Part shown: positions 12,665 through 26,745 of the stretch, one piece after another
How the letters are laid out: each line of letters opens with the position of its first letter
How positions within the stretch are numbered: position 1 is the stretch's first letter
DNA from: a virus
Direction: 5' to 3' (one strand)
Length of the DNA stretch: 33,217 bases
IMG/VR virus record: IMGVR_UViG_3300027822_000028
Coordinates: 1-33,217 of that record
The notes under the pieces: model-generated
Databases searched by the model: none
The model's input: the letters and a program-made list of their open reading frames with translations, nothing else
Told to the model about the DNA's origin: nothing
Program-made: the position numbers and the translations under genes

Positions 12665-13735
12665 TCAGAATATATCCAACTCATCAGCCTGCGACTCAGG
12701 GGCTTCTTCCTTTTCCGGCTGATTATCTTCTATCAACTTAATTACCTGTAGAATATCTTTATAGCCTTTTGATTTGTTGTTAAAATCACCTGTTAAAGTC
12801 TTTAGATATTTAATAGCCCGTTTAGTTTTATCTATCAGATTAACGGTTTCTTTTCCGATAGTGACCTGTTTGTCGGGTATCGTTCCGGCTGTTAGATAAT
12901 CTTCAAGGGTTGTAAGTTCTTGGGGGCGTGTCTTAGGTGTTAATTTTTTAGCTGTTGGCTTGCTGTCACCTTTAGCCCAAAGAGATAATTTTTCTCCAAT
13001 ATCTTCAGTAAGCTGCACATTTCCATTACTAAATATTTTCTTGAACTGTTCAGGAAGCTTTGTCATTAAATCCTCGCCCTTGTTCCCTGTTTGGAATACC
13101 GCGTACCCATTAGACCCTGGAGGTAATAATGCAGAAAGAGTCATTTCAAAAACAAATTCTTTTCCAGCTTCCGGCATATATCCAAGATTTTCTATAGACA
13201 TTTTACCATTTGGTTTTTTAGTAGGGGCGTTTTTTTCTTTTGCTCTAAAACAGGTTATAATATTTGCGTCCATTCTAACCATGTGTCTTAATAGTTTTTT
13301 TCTTTGACCTGACACAAAAGCCCATGCCGGCATTGTGGTTTTTTCTGGGGTAGTATTCCATTTACTTGCAAGCTCTATTGATTTTTTATTTTGTGTTTCA
13401 AGATATCCAGAATCCCCAGTATGTTCATGACTGAAACTATCAACAATTATTACACTTGGTTTTAACTTTTCGACTTGCTCTAAAATATCAAGATAATCAA
13501 GAGAATTAAAAGGCGGTTCAAAAGCAATATATTTATAATTAAACATATCGGCATAATGGCGACCTCTTCCGTTTTCTGTATCTATAAATATTATATCTCC
13601 CGGGAAAACTCTTTGTATCCCGGTTGCGAGTCTTAAAGCTGTATAAGTTTTACCACAACCTGAAGCTCCCCATAATCCTATATTTAAGGGGATAGCTTTT
13701 CTTTCTGCTTGAATTAGTTCTATTTTTCTAGACAT
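12665..13735 (-). CDS. Sak4-like RecA-fold ATPase (recombination/annealing)
   Basis: The 356-residue protein has a Walker A, GASGCGKT (23-30), an acidic site after IIFIDTENGRGRHY, and a Walker B, SVIIVDS (94-100). This is the pattern of the phage AAA_24/Sak4 group of single-strand annealing or RecA-like ATPases. Its neighbour upstream is a PD-(D/E)XK exonuclease, the normal partner in a phage recombination pair. The last residues, SQADELDIF, form an acidic hydrophobic tail like the SSB C-terminus. The start has GGAGG seven bases upstream and overlaps the exonuclease end by 16 bases. The C-terminal third is low-complexity and charged. Confidence 0.85.
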   Translation of the reverse strand: MSRKIELIQAERKAIPLNIGLWGASGCGKTYTALRLATGIQRVFPGDIIFIDTENGRGRHYADMFNYKYIAFEPPFNSLDYLDILEQVEKLKPSVIIVDSFSHEHTGDSGYLETQNKKSIELASKWNTTPEKTTMPAWAFVSGQRKKLLRHMVRMDANIITCFRAKEKNAPTKKPNGKMSIENLGYMPEAGKEFVFEMTLSALLPPGSNGYAVFQTGNKGEDLMTKLPEQFKKIFSNGNVQLTEDIGEKLSLWAKGDSKPTAKKLTPKTRPQELTTLEDYLTAGTIPDKQVTIGKETVNLIDKTKRAIKYLKTLTGDFNNKSKGYKDILQVIKLIEDNQPEKEEAPESQADELDIF

Positions 13736-14565
13736 ATATTTTCCTCCCTACTAACACTCCATCCCGGCGCCGATACAGTCTGCCGTCCATAACCCGGGAA
13801 CACCCCGGATTCTAAGCATTCAGCCCATTTGTCTGCAGCTCTGTTCATTTTACTTTCCCCCAACCATGACATAGAACTATCAGTCTCAACAACTGAAACC
13901 ATGTACGGCGGTTCAGGTTCTACGAAAATAAACTCCCATGTAAACCGTCCAGCCATTTCCGGCCATGTTTTATTAGCACATTTAAGATACATAGCCTCCT
14001 GTATATCATAACCGAAATCAAGAATTTTCCTGTCCAGGTTTTCCGGGTTTGCACTCTGAGCGGTTTTCAAGTCTATAATCTTGCCTTCTTCCTGATTTAT
14101 CCAGTCAAACCTTGACTGACATTTAACCCCGTTATCCATTTCCCATTTGACTGATAGTTCTGATTCATGACTATAAAAAAAATCAGGCGCAAGTTCCTTT
14201 ATTTGTGGGGTTATCTTATCGACTGCTATATTTAAAGCGTCCATGTCTTTCTGCAAGATCGGTATACAACCGGCTTCATATGCTTCATCCCGTTCAGCCT
14301 TTGCGGCATTAGTCCGGAAACTGTCAGCGTTAATAGTGACTATTTCCTGACCTGAACCGAGTAATAGGCCGTGAATAATACTGCCTTTATCCATTGCTTT
14401 TGTCGGGGCTTTTTTCTCTCCACCTAAAAGTGGATGATAAAGCCAAGCATGATATGGGCTTTCGTGTATGAGAGTTTTCGCTGTACTGTAAGAGAATAGC
14501 GGTGTTTCGCTCCCGGCCTGTGAATGATAATCTGATTCTGAAAAATCTTTTAATATTTCTGACAT
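13720..14565 (-). CDS. PD-(D/E)XK exonuclease (RecB-like)
   Basis: The 281-residue protein shows the phage exonuclease pattern: DKGSIIHGLLLG (59-70) near the N-terminus, ESELSVKWE (134-142), QSRFDWINQEEGKIIDLKTA (150-169) with D154 and the D165-L-K167 catalytic motif, and YDIQEAMYL near 187, which carries the conserved Q. It probably resects double-stranded ends to give single strands for the Sak4-like ATPase. GGAGG stands eight bases before the ATG, directly after the preceding stop. Length and motif order fit the family commonly annotated as DUF3799/PDDEXK. Confidence 0.85.
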   Translation of the reverse strand: MSEILKDFSESDYHSQAGSETPLFSYSTAKTLIHESPYHAWLYHPLLGGEKKAPTKAMDKGSIIHGLLLGSGQEIVTINADSFRTNAAKAERDEAYEAGCIPILQKDMDALNIAVDKITPQIKELAPDFFYSHESELSVKWEMDNGVKCQSRFDWINQEEGKIIDLKTAQSANPENLDRKILDFGYDIQEAMYLKCANKTWPEMAGRFTWEFIFVEPEPPYMVSVVETDSSMSWLGESKMNRAADKWAECLESGVFPGYGRQTVSAPGWSVSREENICLEK

Positions 14566-16524: not shown

Positions 16525-18075
16525 CTATTTTCTAAGCCTCTTGCTCATAGCATAAGTCCACCCGGATTTATAACCGAGTGCTTTAGCCATTGCCTTGACT
16601 TTATCGCTTGAACCCTCTCTATACAAAGCACTTATCATTGCCTTGTGGCGGCTCCCCTTGCTCATCTGTTGTAGTTTTATCACTTTACCCGCCAACTCAG
16701 TTATTTGACCCTCTGGCGTGATAGCTGGTAGCACTTCTGTAAGTATCCCCTCTATCTCTTTCGGCATTTTTCGACCTGCTTTATGCTCTCTGTCCGTATG
16801 TAGATCATAACCGCAATCAGGGCATGTATTAGGTTCACCAGGCCAGACTGCGAAACATTTAGGGCATACTGTGACTACAGGTTTTTCAAGTTGATCGCCT
16901 TTTTTACCTCTCTCCCTTGTATCTTGTAATGTCCATACAGGTTCATCGATCAAATGGCCGTGTATTTCATAATTTCCTGCAAAGTCTTGTATCCTTGCTA
17001 TTGGTTTTACTGACTGCCTGATAATTTCAAGGCGCTCTTCTCGGGTGCTATTATATTGATCAAATCCATCAGGCCATATAGGACGCAAAGTTCGGCCACC
17101 AAATTGTTTAAATAATACATAACTCATCATTTTGCGCATCATCTGTAAACCGACACAAGCTGGAACATCAAGACCCTCTCCAAGTACATCTACAAAAGTA
17201 ATACCCTGTACACTGCCTGAACTAAGACCGGCTAAAGCGTCAAACATTTGTTTTTCGTATTTTTTGCCACCTTGTATCATTACGAAATTCCAGTTTTTCC
17301 CTTTTTCCTTTGCTGCCTTCATATATTGCTCTTGAATAAAATGTGCGTGATCAAGAGAAACGCAAGAAATTATACACGGATATCCGTCCATGTATTCCTG
17401 GTAACTGTCAACTGCTGAACCGATAATCTGTTTTTTCTTGAAATGATCTTCCTGTTCTTTTTTGTCATAATCACCATTACTGCCTATATGGAATTTCGGT
17501 ATTTTTTCACCTCGCATCATATGAGGATAAACAAGCCAGCCTTCGTCAACTAAATATTTCAAGGGTAATTCAGATATCATGGTGTCAGCAAATGGGTGTA
17601 AACCCCTTCCATTAATTCGACCGTTTGGAGTTGCTGTAACAAGTAGGGTTTTTAAGTCAGGATTCTTCTGTTTATAATAATTAACAGCCCTACCAAAATT
17701 ATTTTCCTCGATCAAATGATGTGCTTCATCGTGTAAAATCCAATCAGGTGTAGGAATAGAATCAAGTCTATTTATAAGTGACTGAATTCTTGCAACCTGT
17801 ATTTTATGATTAGTTATTTTTTTACCAGCTGAGACTTCTGAAGTTTCAACGCCAAATTTCTTGTAAGTGTCACGGAGTTGCCTTTGGATTATTTGCTTGT
17901 GACAGATTGTTAAAACATTACGGTTTTTTTTCTGAGCTTGAGCTGCCCACCAGGCAAGGACTGAGGATTTTCCGGAACCAGTAGGGGCAACTATTGCAAC
18001 GGAATTTGAGCCGGATTTAAAGGCGTCAAGGGCGGGATTAATCATATGTTTAAATTGATAGGGGCGAAGGGTCAT
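16525..18075 (-). CDS. SF2 DEAH-box helicase with zinc ribbon
   Basis: From the ATG overlapping the previous stop the protein has 516 residues. Helicase motifs are clear: MTLRPYQ at the N-terminus (Q-tip), Walker A APTGSGKS (30-37), DEAH (116-119), TATP (147-150), a motif V-like GITFVDVLGEGLDVP and motif VI QFGGRTLRP. After the second RecA domain a Cys4 zinc ribbon appears (CPKC...CPDC), then a helical C-terminal domain. It resembles the phage SF2 helicases of the restriction-subunit/UvsW type, acting on branched DNA during replication and recombination. It is the last gene of the long replication operon, following a PAPS-reductase-like gene and a VRR-NUC gene. Confidence 0.88.
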   Translation of the reverse strand: MTLRPYQFKHMINPALDAFKSGSNSVAIVAPTGSGKSSVLAWWAAQAQKKNRNVLTICHKQIIQRQLRDTYKKFGVETSEVSAGKKITNHKIQVARIQSLINRLDSIPTPDWILHDEAHHLIEENNFGRAVNYYKQKNPDLKTLLVTATPNGRINGRGLHPFADTMISELPLKYLVDEGWLVYPHMMRGEKIPKFHIGSNGDYDKKEQEDHFKKKQIIGSAVDSYQEYMDGYPCIISCVSLDHAHFIQEQYMKAAKEKGKNWNFVMIQGGKKYEKQMFDALAGLSSGSVQGITFVDVLGEGLDVPACVGLQMMRKMMSYVLFKQFGGRTLRPIWPDGFDQYNSTREERLEIIRQSVKPIARIQDFAGNYEIHGHLIDEPVWTLQDTRERGKKGDQLEKPVVTVCPKCFAVWPGEPNTCPDCGYDLHTDREHKAGRKMPKEIEGILTEVLPAITPEGQITELAGKVIKLQQMSKGSRHKAMISALYREGSSDKVKAMAKALGYKSGWTYAMSKRLRK

Positions 18076-18809
18076 AGCGCACACATACATGGGATATTAT
18101 CATCAAGTTCTTCATCAGAGAATAATTCAATATTATCATCCAAATTCTTCTGCCATTCTTTTGCATATTCAGTCAATGATTTTTCTTTAAATACTGTATT
18201 ACCAATTTCTTTTTCTTTATCAATAGCTTTCTGAAAATACTCAGGGTAATACCTCCATACTCTTTTAAAATGTCCAATACCACCTTTAAAACAAGGTATA
18301 CAGTTATTATGTCTTAAATATTTGTAAGGTTCAGGTAAACATATTTTCCATTCTTTTTTGATAATACTTTTTACTGCATCGCTACTTAATCCATGTTTCA
18401 TTAGTGGATATCTAACTTTTCTACCTGAGTGTTCAATTCTTGCAGTTTGTCTTTGTATTCTTCGACCTTCTGAAATATCATAACCAATATATAAAGTAAA
18501 ATCCTCTGTTAATGATTTATAATATTTTTCCGCCGGTTCCTGTTTTAAGATTCTGCTACAAAATGGAATAAATGAAGATGGTAAGCATTTATTATCGTCT
18601 ATCAATTGCCATAAATTACGTCCATCATTAGCTTCTGTTATCGGTAGACCAATATAATCAGCAACCTGTTTTCTGAATCTATCAGCGTCAGGATGTTCTG
18701 CTTTTGGATTATTAAATAATAATATTGTATCATTCGGAAATTCTTGTGCAACTAACCAACTCATATAGGCTGATCCTGCACCACCTGAAAATAAACATAT
18801 ATGCTTCAT
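18072..18809 (-). CDS. PAPS reductase-like (PP-loop) protein
   Basis: The start at 18809 overlaps the upstream stop (TAATG) and has GGGAG in place, giving 245 residues. SGGAGSA (8-14) is the nucleotide-binding PP-loop of the adenine nucleotide alpha-hydrolase fold; C84 in FCSRILK and the pair C170-x-x-C173 (NNCIPCFKGG) are further typical positions. Phage members of the phosphoadenosine phosphosulfate reductase family are common, and their substrate is usually unknown. Roles in nucleotide or nucleic acid thiolation or modification are possible. Next to helicase and nuclease genes, a role in phage DNA metabolism is more likely than sulfur assimilation. Confidence 0.8.
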   Translation of the reverse strand: MKHICLFSGGAGSAYMSWLVAQEFPNDTILLFNNPKAEHPDADRFRKQVADYIGLPITEANDGRNLWQLIDDNKCLPSSFIPFCSRILKQEPAEKYYKSLTEDFTLYIGYDISEGRRIQRQTARIEHSGRKVRYPLMKHGLSSDAVKSIIKKEWKICLPEPYKYLRHNNCIPCFKGGIGHFKRVWRYYPEYFQKAIDKEKEIGNTVFKEKSLTEYAKEWQKNLDDNIELFSDEELDDNIPCMCAL

Positions 18810-19204
18810 TATTCTCCCTTCCACTCCCTCAACTCATAATCCTCATCAGAATCATTTTCACGGGCAACATAAGCTTTTCCGCCTATTTGTACACAATAAT
18901 TCAAATGATCTTTCTGTTCCTGGGTTAATTTTGAATACTTTTTAGTCTTTACTTCGATCATGCAGAACACCGGCACACGAACTTCTTTGTATTGCCAGTT
19001 TTCGTATTTCTGATAGGTTATAAATTCGAAACCTGTCAAGTCTGGGAATCCGTTTATCTTCCCAGGATATGGGCTGACCCGGATAATTTTATCTGAATGT
19101 AAAGCCCGAAAAGTACCTTGCATCATCTTGAATAAACGACCTCTTTTTTCGACTGACCATTTTTTTATGACTTCTAGGAGGATTTGTTCATGTTTAGAGG
19201 CCAA
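18809..19204 (-). CDS. VRR-NUC domain nuclease
   Basis: The 131-residue protein uses a TTG start with a very good GGGGGAAGG six bases upstream; no in-frame ATG lies nearby. The VRR-NUC pattern of PD-(D/E)XK nucleases is present: GFPDLTGFEF (52-61, D55), FCMIEVKTKK (80-89, E84 and K86) and KLTQEQKDHL (92-101, with the conserved Q). Stand-alone phage VRR-NUC proteins are probably structure-specific nucleases or junction resolvases. It overlaps the small ORF upstream and the PAPS-like gene downstream. Confidence 0.85.
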   Translation of the reverse strand: MASKHEQILLEVIKKWSVEKRGRLFKMMQGTFRALHSDKIIRVSPYPGKINGFPDLTGFEFITYQKYENWQYKEVRVPVFCMIEVKTKKYSKLTQEQKDHLNYCVQIGGKAYVARENDSDEDYELREWKGE

Positions 19205-23085: not shown

Positions 23086-23097
23086 CTAAAAAGGTAT
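23068..23097 (-). repeat. 12-bp direct repeat ATACCTTTTTAG at primase end and in promoter
   Basis: On the minus strand ATACCTTTTTAG ends the primase gene (23086-23097, coding IPF-stop) and recurs after TTGACA (23068-23079) within the promoter spacer. ATACCTTTTTA also ends the SSB-like gene at 21464-21476. The promoter -35 is the six bases between the two copies. Confidence 0.7.
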
Positions 23098-25788
23098 CTG
23101 ATCTTCAAAATTTCCATTTAATGTTTCTGTTTCTTTCTTATCCTGTCCAATTTTATCAAACAAAATATCATAACTAAATCTTGCAGCAGCTCCACGGCCT
23201 CCTGCATAAAATGTTTCTGGAACTATTTCCGATACATGTGGATGTCGTCTTAAAATCTCTTTAATATCCCCTGAAAACTGAGTAAATTTTAAAATATCTT
23301 TTACATAAGTAGCATTATAAATAAACAAAATACCATTATTACATTTGTCATGTTCCAATAAAAACCCGTAAGGTTTTACAGATTTTGCAATATTATTCAT
23401 TATCTGTTTATCTTGATTTACAGTATTGTCTTTTTCGTCTTTATACATCTGCAATAAATCAAAAATAGGTAATCTCTCAGATAATCCATTTGATTTTTTA
23501 TATTCAATTATTCTTTGCAATACCATAGAAAAACAATATTCTGCTTCTGTAGATTCTCCTGATTTTATTTGATCATTAAAGTTAAAATGAGTAGATAAGA
23601 ATTCTTTAAATCCTCCCTCTGTAATATTTCTGCCATTTTTTAAACAAATAAAAGAACCCATAGTCAAAACTGAATATTGCTGTGATAATCTCCCAGAAAA
23701 CCCAAGATCAGAAAAAACCTTGAAAGCCATTTTCACATAATCAGCAATATTTTTTGTATTCATAACTAAAAAATATTTTAATTCATTCAAATAATCACTT
23801 GTTAAAGTCTCATTTATCATCTTTTCGGTTTCTATCCAATGAGTTGGAGAAGTTTGCAATCCCTTATCAAAGTTGATTAATGTAAATCTTGTCAAATCTG
23901 CATTTTCTGCTATTTGTGGAGAAACGGAGCCAACACAAAACATAGATTGTACTGCAAAATCAATTCCTGAATGATCAGCGGTTCCCCTGGAAACTCTCGT
24001 ACCGCTCGAAGCCTGTCTAATAAGTGCTTTTATAGCTCTTAAATTCTTATTTGTTTTATCATCCATGTTTTCAAGCTCATCAATTAAAACCGGTAATGTA
24101 GAAACTTTTAAACGTTGTCTAATTCCTGCCTCTGTACTACTTCCAGTTTCTTTAATTGCAGAACTACCAAGAATAGTTTTAATGAAATCAATAGCTGATG
24201 TTTTACCGCTTCCAGCTTCACCGGTTAGCCATATATGAGGTCTCCAGTCAAAAGCACCTCCAAGTATTGACATTATAATCCAACCTAAGAACAAATATTT
24301 TTCTTGAGGTGAGCTTATAGAAAACCGTTTAATTATATTTGCAATTTTTATCATATCAATCGGCTTAAAGCCATCTTCAGAAAAGTTTAAATATCCTTTT
24401 TTCTCATAAATATTATTTGTATTAAAATCAAATAAACCTACTTTCTGGCCATCAACAATAAGCCCTGTTCCATAATGGAATACATAACGTCCATCATCTT
24501 CCCAAGCCCCAAGCTGTCTAATTTTTCCAGTTTCATGATAAGGTGTTTTTAACGCTAAAGTCAGCATGTCTTCTATAGCTGTATCAGTATCATATAATCC
24601 TTTCATACCTTCAGTGGGTGGATATTTATTACACCAATATTCACGGGGTGCCATTATTCGTAAAAACCCAAGTGTAATTGACTCCTGCCTTACAGGCTTC
24701 ACAAGTCCCAGACGATAAGACATAAAATAGAAATTTTCATGATCATGAGATAATGCTTTAAAATACTGAGGGTCTATTTCTTCAGTTTCATATAAATTCT
24801 GAAATATAAATTTCTCAATATCTTCAGAACTCCACCCATCAATCACGGCATCAGCTGCATCCCATTTATCAACATAATACTCATCATCTGGAATCTTAAC
24901 TACTGATACATTATCAAATCTTTCTTTAACAAATCCTATACTTTTTAATCCAGGTTCATCATTATCAGGCCAGTAAAAAACATGTTTAATATCTAATTTT
25001 TCAAATATTTCATAACTTTTAGGATTCATCAAATTACTAGATCCACCATTACAGGTGATAACCCATTTATTTAAATCTAGGACAGTTTCAAGAAAATGTG
25101 CTGCTTTTTCACCTTCAACAATTATTACATTTCTTTTACCTAACTTTGACAATTCATTTTGTCTTGAAAATGGATATGCTTTACCAGCAAACGACTGTTT
25201 ATACCATGTAAAATCATTCCATTTATCGTCATTTTTTTTGTGTTCAAAATATCCAACAGCAAGAAGTTTTCTTGATTTGCCTTTAGTATCTTTAAATGGT
25301 TTTTTTAATCTAATAGAAACATAAAGCAAATTATTTTGAATATCTCTATACTCATAGATCCAATCAATATTGTCAGATATTTTTTTATCATTTTCACAAA
25401 ATACAGAAAAGTCATTTTCATAAACATCTTCAGGAATAGGAATAATAGCCTTATATTTTATTTTACTTTTAGGAGGAAAAGCCTTGTCATAAAAAGAAGG
25501 ATCTTCACTTTTTAATATTTTTTTAGCCGCTTCCATAGGTTTTAATCCGTTAATTTTTGCATAAAAAGTCGTTATATTTGTATTATAACTATCATCAGCA
25601 AAATCTTTTACAGCACCTATTCTATCACCCGATACACATATCCCAAAAGACCCAGGATTATTTTCTCCTCGATCAAAATTCTTTAAGGTATACCAACCTC
25701 TATTATCTATATTCCCACCTGGAAAATAAGATTCTATATTCTGACAAACAACTTTATTAGAATGCTTAAAAATCTCTTTATAGTCCAT
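23086..25788 (-). CDS. Primase-helicase (TOPRIM + P-loop helicase)
   Basis: This 900-residue protein joins an N-terminal primase-type region, a TOPRIM domain and a C-terminal helicase. Residues 1-95 resemble a zinc-finger-less DnaG-type lead (WYTLKNFDRGENNPGSFGIC, GAVKDFADDS). TOPRIM shows NVIIVEGEKAAHF with E225 and FYWPDNDEPG with D275/D277. After a linker, Walker A GEAGSGKT (523-530) and Walker B LPVLIDELE (565-573) belong to a DUF927/D5-type helicase. It probably unwinds and primes at the adjacent iteron region. The last residues, NGNFEDQIPF, look like an SSB tail. Only 11 bases separate it from the RHH gene upstream. Confidence 0.88.
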   Translation of the reverse strand: MDYKEIFKHSNKVVCQNIESYFPGGNIDNRGWYTLKNFDRGENNPGSFGICVSGDRIGAVKDFADDSYNTNITTFYAKINGLKPMEAAKKILKSEDPSFYDKAFPPKSKIKYKAIIPIPEDVYENDFSVFCENDKKISDNIDWIYEYRDIQNNLLYVSIRLKKPFKDTKGKSRKLLAVGYFEHKKNDDKWNDFTWYKQSFAGKAYPFSRQNELSKLGKRNVIIVEGEKAAHFLETVLDLNKWVITCNGGSSNLMNPKSYEIFEKLDIKHVFYWPDNDEPGLKSIGFVKERFDNVSVVKIPDDEYYVDKWDAADAVIDGWSSEDIEKFIFQNLYETEEIDPQYFKALSHDHENFYFMSYRLGLVKPVRQESITLGFLRIMAPREYWCNKYPPTEGMKGLYDTDTAIEDMLTLALKTPYHETGKIRQLGAWEDDGRYVFHYGTGLIVDGQKVGLFDFNTNNIYEKKGYLNFSEDGFKPIDMIKIANIIKRFSISSPQEKYLFLGWIIMSILGGAFDWRPHIWLTGEAGSGKTSAIDFIKTILGSSAIKETGSSTEAGIRQRLKVSTLPVLIDELENMDDKTNKNLRAIKALIRQASSGTRVSRGTADHSGIDFAVQSMFCVGSVSPQIAENADLTRFTLINFDKGLQTSPTHWIETEKMINETLTSDYLNELKYFLVMNTKNIADYVKMAFKVFSDLGFSGRLSQQYSVLTMGSFICLKNGRNITEGGFKEFLSTHFNFNDQIKSGESTEAEYCFSMVLQRIIEYKKSNGLSERLPIFDLLQMYKDEKDNTVNQDKQIMNNIAKSVKPYGFLLEHDKCNNGILFIYNATYVKDILKFTQFSGDIKEILRRHPHVSEIVPETFYAGGRGAAARFSYDILFDKIGQDKKETETLNGNFEDQIPF

Positions 25789-25799
25789 TTAAACCTCTA

Positions 25800-25943
25800 C
25801 TAATTATTATTTCTAAGCTTTTCTAAATATTCTTTTAGAATCTGTACAATTTTATTAGATCTGGTCCGTCCCTCCTTTTCAGCTAAAAAATCAATTTCTT
25901 CAATCAATTCTTCGTCAATTGTAATGCTTGTTGCTATCTTCAT
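25800..25943 (-). CDS. RHH (CopG-like) regulator
   Basis: The 47-residue ORF begins MKIATSITIDEELIEEIDFL and continues AEKEGRTRSNKIVQILKEYL, a plain ribbon-helix-helix: strand ATSITID, helix A EELIEEIDFLAEKEG, turn RTRSN, helix B KIVQILKEYLEKL. AAGGAG lies before the ATG. It heads the replication operon and is probably an autoregulator: the promoter element AAGATAGCA lies at 25961-25969 and an inverted copy covers codons 2-4 of this very gene (25932-25940). Confidence 0.85.
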   Translation of the reverse strand: MKIATSITIDEELIEEIDFLAEKEGRTRSNKIVQILKEYLEKLRNNN

Positions 25944-25960
25944 AATAACTCCTTATAAAC

Positions 25961-25989
25961 AAGATAGCATATAACATATTTAATGTCAA
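25961..25989 (-). promoter_or_regulatory. Leftward promoter P2 of the replication operon
   Basis: TTGACA and TATCTT on the minus strand are 17 bases apart. The element AAGATAGCA (plus strand 25961-25969) overlaps the -10, as in P1 and P3. A perfect inverted copy, TGCTATCTT, lies at 25932-25940, 20 bases away across the start of transcription and the RHH start codon, so two operator half-sites face each other. Confidence 0.75.
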
Positions 25990-26002
25990 CACATTATATT
26001 AA

Positions 26003-26332
26003 GTAAAGTAAAAACTAATTTAGTAAAGTGATTTTTATAATTTAGTAAAGTGTAAAGTAAAAAAATACTACTTTACGTCAACTTTACATGTTTACTTTAC
26101 GTTTTTAACTCTTTGCTGTATAACACTTTATATAATAATATATATTATTGTAAAGTTATTTTAATAGAAAGATATAAGGAGAACTAAAAAAGAGGGTTTT
26201 AAAGTACTTTTATATTTTTATACATGCCTTTTTGTATATCTGTATATGTTTTTCCTACTTTACTTTACGAAATTCACTTAACTCTATATATAGTATATAA
26301 TTAACTTGTAAAGTGGAGATATTGGACTTTAC
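26003..26332. repeat. Iteron-like array of GTAAAGT/ACTTTAC; candidate origin
   Basis: The 487-base region between the RHH gene and the small terminase holds no gene. It has twelve exact 7-mers: GTAAAGT at 26003, 26023, 26045, 26052, 26150 and 26308, and ACTTTAC at 26070, 26081, 26094, 26257, 26262 and 26326. Two pairs are in tandem or overlapping. The copies split into a left cluster (26003-26100) and right copies around a very AT-rich centre (26101-26256). Next to the primase-helicase gene this resembles an iteron origin of replication. Alternatively the motif is a binding site for a regulator. Confidence 0.65.
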
Positions 26333-26364
26333 GTTTACGATTTTAGCCTTATTTCATTACCCCT

Positions 26365-26393
26365 TTTACAAAACAAGTTTTTAGTGGTATAGT
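26365..26393 (+). promoter_or_regulatory. Rightward promoter of packaging/head operon
   Basis: TTTACA and TATAGT are separated by 17 bases, five of six matches each to the sigma70 consensus. Transcription should start near 26400, about 30 bases before the small terminase ATG. The last two iteron motifs lie 30-60 bases upstream of the -35. Confidence 0.65.
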
Positions 26394-26430
26394 TAAGATA
26401 TGAGTAGCAAAACTACAAAGGAACAACATA

Positions 26431-26745
26431 ATGGCTGCACGTAGCGGTGGATTTGATAAACACCCTGAAAATATAAACCGTAATGGTCGAGCGCCTAAAG
26501 AATTTACCTTAACAAATCTACTTAGAGAAACTTTAAATCAAACAAATGACGAAACCGGGAAAACCAAAAAACAGGAAGTTATTGATAAGATGTATGAACT
26601 GGCTGTTGAAAAGGGTGATGTGCAAATGATGAAATATCTCATTGACCGCATCGATGGGAAACCGTTACAGACAATTGCAGCCGATATAAATACTAACGAT
26701 CCTGATTCAGTATTTGAGATAGTAAAACCTGATGCAAGTACCTGA
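26431..26745 (+). CDS. Small terminase-like protein
   Basis: This 104-residue protein begins MAARSGGFDKHPENINRNGR, a basic start typical of the DUF5681-like proteins encoded just before large terminases. It continues with helices (LTNLLRETLNQTNDETGKTK, VIDKMYELAVEKGDVQMMKY) and LIDRIDGKPLQTIAADI. It probably recognises phage DNA and starts packaging. AAAGGA lies upstream of the ATG. Its 3' end overlaps the large terminase start by 14 bases. The small-terminase role is by place and by family pattern. Confidence 0.7.
   Translation: MAARSGGFDKHPENINRNGRAPKEFTLTNLLRETLNQTNDETGKTKKQEVIDKMYELAVEKGDVQMMKYLIDRIDGKPLQTIAADINTNDPDSVFEIVKPDAST

Follow-up and report, generated by a model that had tools for sequence, protein, structure and literature searches.

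A bipartite heptamer array beside a phage primase-helicase operon is a probable replication origin

Introduction

The Rep protein of SaPIs recognises, through its C-terminal domain, iterons located directly downstream of its own gene (PMC7581432). In PICI origins, an AT-rich region is always flanked by two sets of iterons, and plasmids carrying rep and ori are maintained (PMC6092414). The alpha protein of P4 binds the repeats of its origin through a winged helix, and both unwinds and primes the DNA (PMC4234260). Among the SCCmec initiators, Cch2 also binds direct repeats downstream of its own gene; its site comprises only three repeats, and SCC has no demonstrated replication in vivo. The orf56-orf904 pair of pRN1 encodes a small repressor that is co-transcribed with a primase-helicase, the latter having a C-terminal winged helix, and the origin of pRN1 is a 100-nt downstream stem-loop devoid of iterons.

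Here, we analysed a 33,217-nucleotide stretch of viral DNA (positions 1 to 33,217 of the IMG/VR record IMGVR_UViG_3300027822_000028), hereafter the window, which belongs to a tailed phage. A first-pass annotation of the window had proposed a replication origin in the intergenic region upstream of its primase-helicase operon, and had left open whether a ribbon-helix-helix (RHH) protein, the primase-helicase or a host factor reads the repeats.

Results

Organisation of the locus

The features of the locus are listed in Table 1. The annotation had reported twelve copies of GTAAAGT/ACTTTAC, six on each strand, at 26003-26332, within a long gene-free stretch located between a primase-helicase operon and a packaging operon. 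All twelve copies were found as exact matches, the gene-free stretch (25944-26430) is the longest between called genes of the window, and it is bordered by the RHH-primase operon on the left (-) and by terS-terL on the right (+). The left cluster comprises seven heptamers in 98 bases and the right cluster four in 76 bases, with one copy in between. The start-to-start spacings are 20, 22, 7, 18, 11, 13, 56, 107, 5, 46, and 18, and the largest copy-free gap within the array is 100 nt long (26157-26256). In comparison with these twelve copies, a first-order Markov model of the intergenic region gave a mean of 0.37 copies and a maximum of 4 in 5000 trials. The whole record contains 21 copies (mean 4.6 and maximum 11 in shuffles), and the nine that lie outside the array are all single, without a second cluster, which agrees with the rarity that the annotation had anticipated.

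The annotation had also described an AT-rich middle flanked by the two clusters. This description is valid for duplex stability but not for composition. On the one hand, the weakest 50-, 100-, and 150-bp duplexes of the whole record, as calculated from nearest-neighbour energies, start at positions 26127, 26126, and 26119, respectively. On the other hand, the middle (26101-26256; GC 0.21) is not AT-richer than the left (0.20) and right (0.25) clusters, because the entire region is AT-rich. The GC skew, which had been suggested as a check, does show a minimum at 26 kb, but this minimum coincides with a change in gene direction. As the skew also flips at other such changes, it provides no independent evidence for an origin. 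A stem-loop origin was rejected, since no stable stem-loop is present at 26101-26256 (z -0.18), and an Rfam search returned no match.

Elsewhere in the window, a phosphoadenosine phosphosulfate reductase-like protein (phrog_424, E 3e-39), of a type frequent in phages, is encoded at 18072-18824 (-). At 12665-14565 (-), an Exonuclease VIII-like nuclease (phrog_412) adjoins an AAA/Sak4-like ATPase, with which it likely forms a recombination pair.

Table 1. Features of the array and of the adjoining operons (positions in the window; a dot marks features without strand)
Feature	Position	Strand	Basis or remark
Primase-helicase, 900 aa, TOPRIM primase and MCM/Cch-like helicase, proposed array reader	23086..25788	-	phrog_35358, E 7.5e-65
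Primase-helicase residues 736-880 (C-terminal domain), winged-helix-like by prediction, proposed to bind the iterons	23149..23583	-	AlphaFold model
CopG-type RHH protein, 47 aa, first gene of the primase operon	25800..25943	-	Pfam RHH_1, E 4.5e-8
Inverted repeat TGCTATCTT / AAGATAGCA, 9-nt arms	25932..25969	.	Candidate RHH operator
Sigma-70-like promoter TTGACA-17-TATCTT of the RHH-primase operon	25961..25989	-	Sequence match
Left iteron cluster	26003..26100	26003, 26023, 26045, 26052 (+); 26070, 26081, 26094 (-)	Exact GTAAAGT matches
Candidate DNA unwinding element	26126..26225	.	Weakest 100-bp duplex in the record, nearest-neighbour energy scan
Single GTAAAGT in the AT-rich middle	26150..26156	+	Exact match
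Right iteron cluster	26257..26332	26257, 26262, 26326 (-); 26308 (+)	Exact GTAAAGT matches
Sigma-70-like promoter TTTACA-17-TATAGT before terS	26365..26393	+	Kept in relative L003
Terminase small subunit terS, first gene right of the array	26431..26745	+	Weak PHROG match, E 0.013; precedes terL

Structural models of the primase-helicase

The profile of the primase-helicase family matches DnaG zinc-binding and TOPRIM structures with E values from 3e-17 to 2e-4. The window protein itself has no Pfam match, its helicase part being without an informative Pfam family; DUF927 was detected in none of 42 family members and DUF5906 in two of 42. In the full-length AlphaFold model (pLDDT 84), residues 122-335 resemble the T7 gp4 primase (Z 14.5) and residues 340-744 resemble the SaPI5 Rep helicase (7ola, Z 14.2), which is also the best Foldseek match. 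The best VIA match is SCCmec Cch (5dgk), which covers residues 338-878 (Z 15.7, 427 residues, rmsd 9.2).

When modelled alone, the C-terminal residues 736-900 gave a pLDDT of 85.7. The structural neighbours of this domain are 2ipq (Z 5.4), followed by residues 449-556 of SaPIbov1 Rep (8tch, Z 4.8) and by oriT-bound pCW3 TcpK (5vfx, Z 4.5). The scores of the winged-helix-like neighbours are modest (Z 3-5), and the assignment is only suggestive, because none of the Foldseek matches to this domain is significant. The model suggests a winged-helix-like fold with a weak resemblance to that of SaPIbov1 Rep.

Heptamer arrays at relatives of the primase-helicase

The window primase has no close relative in the viral and genome collections, the best identity being ~27%, so GTAAAGT is not traceable through relatives. 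Four phage homologs that we aligned with it are 23-26% identical. For the comparison of flanking DNA, we used 80 loci of primase-helicase relatives (20-28% identity), which were fetched by the peptides WRPHIW and TEAGIRQxL only; the selection was therefore blind to the flanking DNA. We scored an array whenever a 450-nt flank contained five or more identical copies of a heptamer, considering all heptamers that include G or C.

Arrays were found directly 3' of the primase-helicase gene in 35 of 79 cases, in none of 77 cases 5' of it, and in 21 of 1060 cases at other places (Fisher p = 3.5e-30). After removal of redundancy at 65%, 3' arrays were present in 15 of 41 loci (Fisher p = 5e-12). More than half of the relatives have no exact-copy array by this criterion. 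The arrays of the relatives contain copies in both orientations and are bipartite, with a gap of ~83-168 nt (100 nt in the window), which is usually AT-richer than the locus. The most common units are TGTAACG and TGTTACG, others being TGTTACC, TGTCACG, TGTCCCG, TGCGGAC, and TGTCAGC; the GTAAAG of the window and the GTAACG of the relatives are one base apart. Motif similarity showed no significant correlation with primase similarity (Mantel test, p ~0.1, 12 lineages). Whereas the array is 3' of the gene in nearly all relatives, that of the window is 5' of the RHH-primase operon. Acinetobacter phage Acjo_20 (L300) exhibits nine TGTAACA 5' of its primase gene, i.e., on the same side as in the window.

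Three elements of the origin model are demonstrated, namely the array, the weak core inside it, and the association of arrays with relatives of the primase-helicase. Open-licence papers were searched for iterons accompanying this primase family, and none that reports them was found. At L343:11376-11884, a second, different array is located far from the primase gene, with 13 TAGTACA followed by AGGTGCG repeats.

Discussion

Proposed origin and comparison with described systems

The origin proposed in the annotation is supported by the bipartite array, by the weakest duplex lying inside it, and by the family-wide association of arrays with the primase-helicase. Regarding the reader, for which three candidates had been put forward, the comparison favours the primase-helicase, because arrays accompany its relatives whereas no RHH relatives were found near these primase-helicase genes or near other GTAAAGT arrays. 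We therefore consider it probable that 26003-26332 is the replication origin of the phage and that it is opened by the neighbouring primase-helicase upon binding of the heptamers. Points against this model are the 5' position of the array, the many relatives that have no exact-copy array, the lack of a significant correlation between motif and primase similarity, and the GTAAAGT arrays that adjoin terminase genes, but no primase, in two unrelated phage groups.

As the genes of the relatives are often flanked by such arrays, the array is likely the landing site of the primase-helicase. From this, we infer the following steps. The primase-helicase would bind the GTAAAGT copies in each of the two clusters, probably by means of the winged-helix-like domain at its C-terminus, and helicase rings would assemble on either side of the core. 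The weak duplex between the clusters (~26126-26225) would then be melted by the primase-helicase, which would travel outward as a helicase while its TOPRIM domain lays the first primers, so that replication would start at the array. Synthesis would be continued by a host polymerase, which is invoked because no such enzyme was recognised in the window.

Overall, we would class the locus with the P4/SaPI kind, as a variant in which an iteron origin is served by a self-loading initiator. With the pri-rep-ori systems of SaPIs and PICIs (SaPIbov1 and SaPI5 Rep), it shares two sets of short iterons (26003-26100 and 26257-26332) around an AT-rich stretch near the helicase gene and, as proposed here, a self-loading helicase with a C-terminal origin-binding domain. 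The resemblance of the helicase to 7ola and of the C-terminal domain to 8tch is structural only. In contrast to SaPIs, which are satellites, the window belongs to a tailed phage; its primase is of the TOPRIM (DnaG) type, whereas that of SaPIs is an AEP; its helicase matches no DUF927 or D5 Pfam model; and its array is 5' of the operon, whereas the SaPI origin is directly 3' of the initiator gene.

Like P4 alpha, the window protein is a fusion of a TOPRIM primase and a ring helicase. Short origin repeats are a further similarity, and the C-terminal winged helix by which P4 alpha binds its origin may have a counterpart in the C-terminal domain predicted here, but the helicase lineage and the repeat differ. 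In P4, ori and crr are separate sites. Cch is the best overall structural match for the helicase together with the C-terminal domain; in contrast to the window protein, Cch and Cch2 have no fused primase. The operon organisation is reminiscent of pRN1, but the middle of the window array has no stable stem-loop.

Alternative readings of the array

The RHH protein, whose RHH_1 domain is well recognised (33.2 bits for a curated cut-off of 20.5), could also be the reader, in which case the heptamers would form a multi-site operator, comparable to that of the omega repressor, for the two divergent promoters, the early one of RHH-primase and the late one of terS-terL. RHH proteins such as omega and CopG are able to recognise short heptads that are repeated in either orientation, those of omega being 7 bp long. 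The RHH gene is 59 nt away from the first heptamer and the array is exactly between the two divergent promoters. Moreover, the relative L003 (TerL 77% identical) differs from the window in its primase and its RHH protein, and exhibits ~8 TGTACA palindromes at the same intergenic place (L003:4230-4750), two of them at its RHH promoter. Nevertheless, we regard an RHH operator as unlikely. The nearest heptamers are ~14 nt upstream of one -35 box and ~33 nt upstream of the other, and simple repression through the heptamers is unlikely because neither promoter is overlapped by one. Their irregular spacing is unlike the contiguous heptads of omega, and the absence of RHH relatives from the other GTAAAGT arrays and primase-linked arrays also argues against this reading. 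In addition, the separate 9-nt inverted repeat spans the -10 box and the start and first codons of the RHH gene, which makes it, as judged from its sequence and position, a better operator candidate than the heptamers. By analogy, the RHH protein most likely tunes its own RHH-primase operon rather than reading the array; the small transcriptional repressor of the pRN1 operon is a precedent for such a regulator (PMC4234260). A hairpin over the ribosome site of the RHH gene was not above shuffles (z -0.60).

GTAAAGT arrays also occur outside the primase-helicase family. When viral contigs were searched for triples of GTAAAGT, arrays of 6-14 copies were found in several unrelated phage groups among the matches listed; in the same matches, loci with at least six copies amounted to 35 of 119 for GTAAAGT vs 5 of 96 for the reversed control heptamer. 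In a group of AT-rich phages (L171, L126, L145, L168, L100, L198, L155, and related loci), (T)GTAAAGT arrays adjoin a Prim-Pol/DUF3987/HTH helicase, and some of these loci encode an adjacent stand-alone DnaA domain IV-like protein (Bac_DnaA_C, E 3.6e-5). A relationship between this family and that of the window was rejected by profile comparison (probability 6%). In two further unrelated groups (L183, L104, L190, L115, L113 and L193, L101, L148, L175, L117, L124), the arrays are near terS-terL where two gene blocks meet; neither group has an adjoining primase.

The excess of GTAAAGT over its control and the DnaA domain IV-like protein beside some arrays would be consistent with an origin whose heptamers are read by the host or by another phage protein. 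We consider such a reader very unlikely. From one primase-helicase lineage to another, the repeat varies (TGTAACG, TGTTACC, TGTCCCG, TGCGGAC, and others), which argues for a phage-coded reader, and GTAAAGT recurs in a small number of lineages, which can be explained without a host reader common to them. As these few lineages also have different neighbours, the recurrence was not counted in favour of one reader, and a universal GTAAAGT reader was not adopted.

If the array were a packaging site (pac or cosB) recognised by the adjoining TerS, proximity to terS might be expected; the array ends ~100 nt before this gene, and the distance from GTAAAGT arrays to a terS gene is 14-59 nt in one unrelated phage group. 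A packaging function appears highly improbable, since GTAAAGT is missing from the 2.5 kb upstream of terS in L002, whose TerL is 84% identical and whose TerS is 50% identical and of the same type, and since the association of arrays with the primase in the relatives is independent of the terminase. GTAAAGT arrays are absent from L002-L009, i.e., the relatives identified by TerL. One of these (L008:208-1008) encodes a protein containing a degenerate alanine-aspartate-tyrosine repeat (AADAAYAAS) of considerable length. That the RHH protein binds the array as a centromere-like partition site, by which a plasmid prophage would be maintained, is hardly credible: RHH proteins do serve as centromere-binding proteins and the two RHH proteins have two weak PHROG matches to partition families (E 0.03), but no ParA, TubZ, ParM, integrase or lysogeny gene was recognised among the proteins scanned.

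Returning to the origin read by the primase-helicase, the array might in addition act as a genetic switch. Located between the divergent early and late promoters, it would, when occupied by the primase-helicase and perhaps by the RHH protein, tie replication initiation to the switch from early to packaging genes, and the arrays at the junctions beside the terminase genes of unrelated phages would be similar devices. We regard this extension as doubtful.

Implications for phage replication

Few uncultivated phages have an assigned replication origin. The presence of an array beside a primase-helicase gene leads to a directly testable prediction of both the origin and its reader, and this prediction applies to numerous phages, among them isolates such as Acinetobacter phage Acjo_20. 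In this large family of phage primase-helicases, the helicase part of which has no Pfam model, bipartite heptamer arrays are found beside the gene in almost half of the loci sampled.
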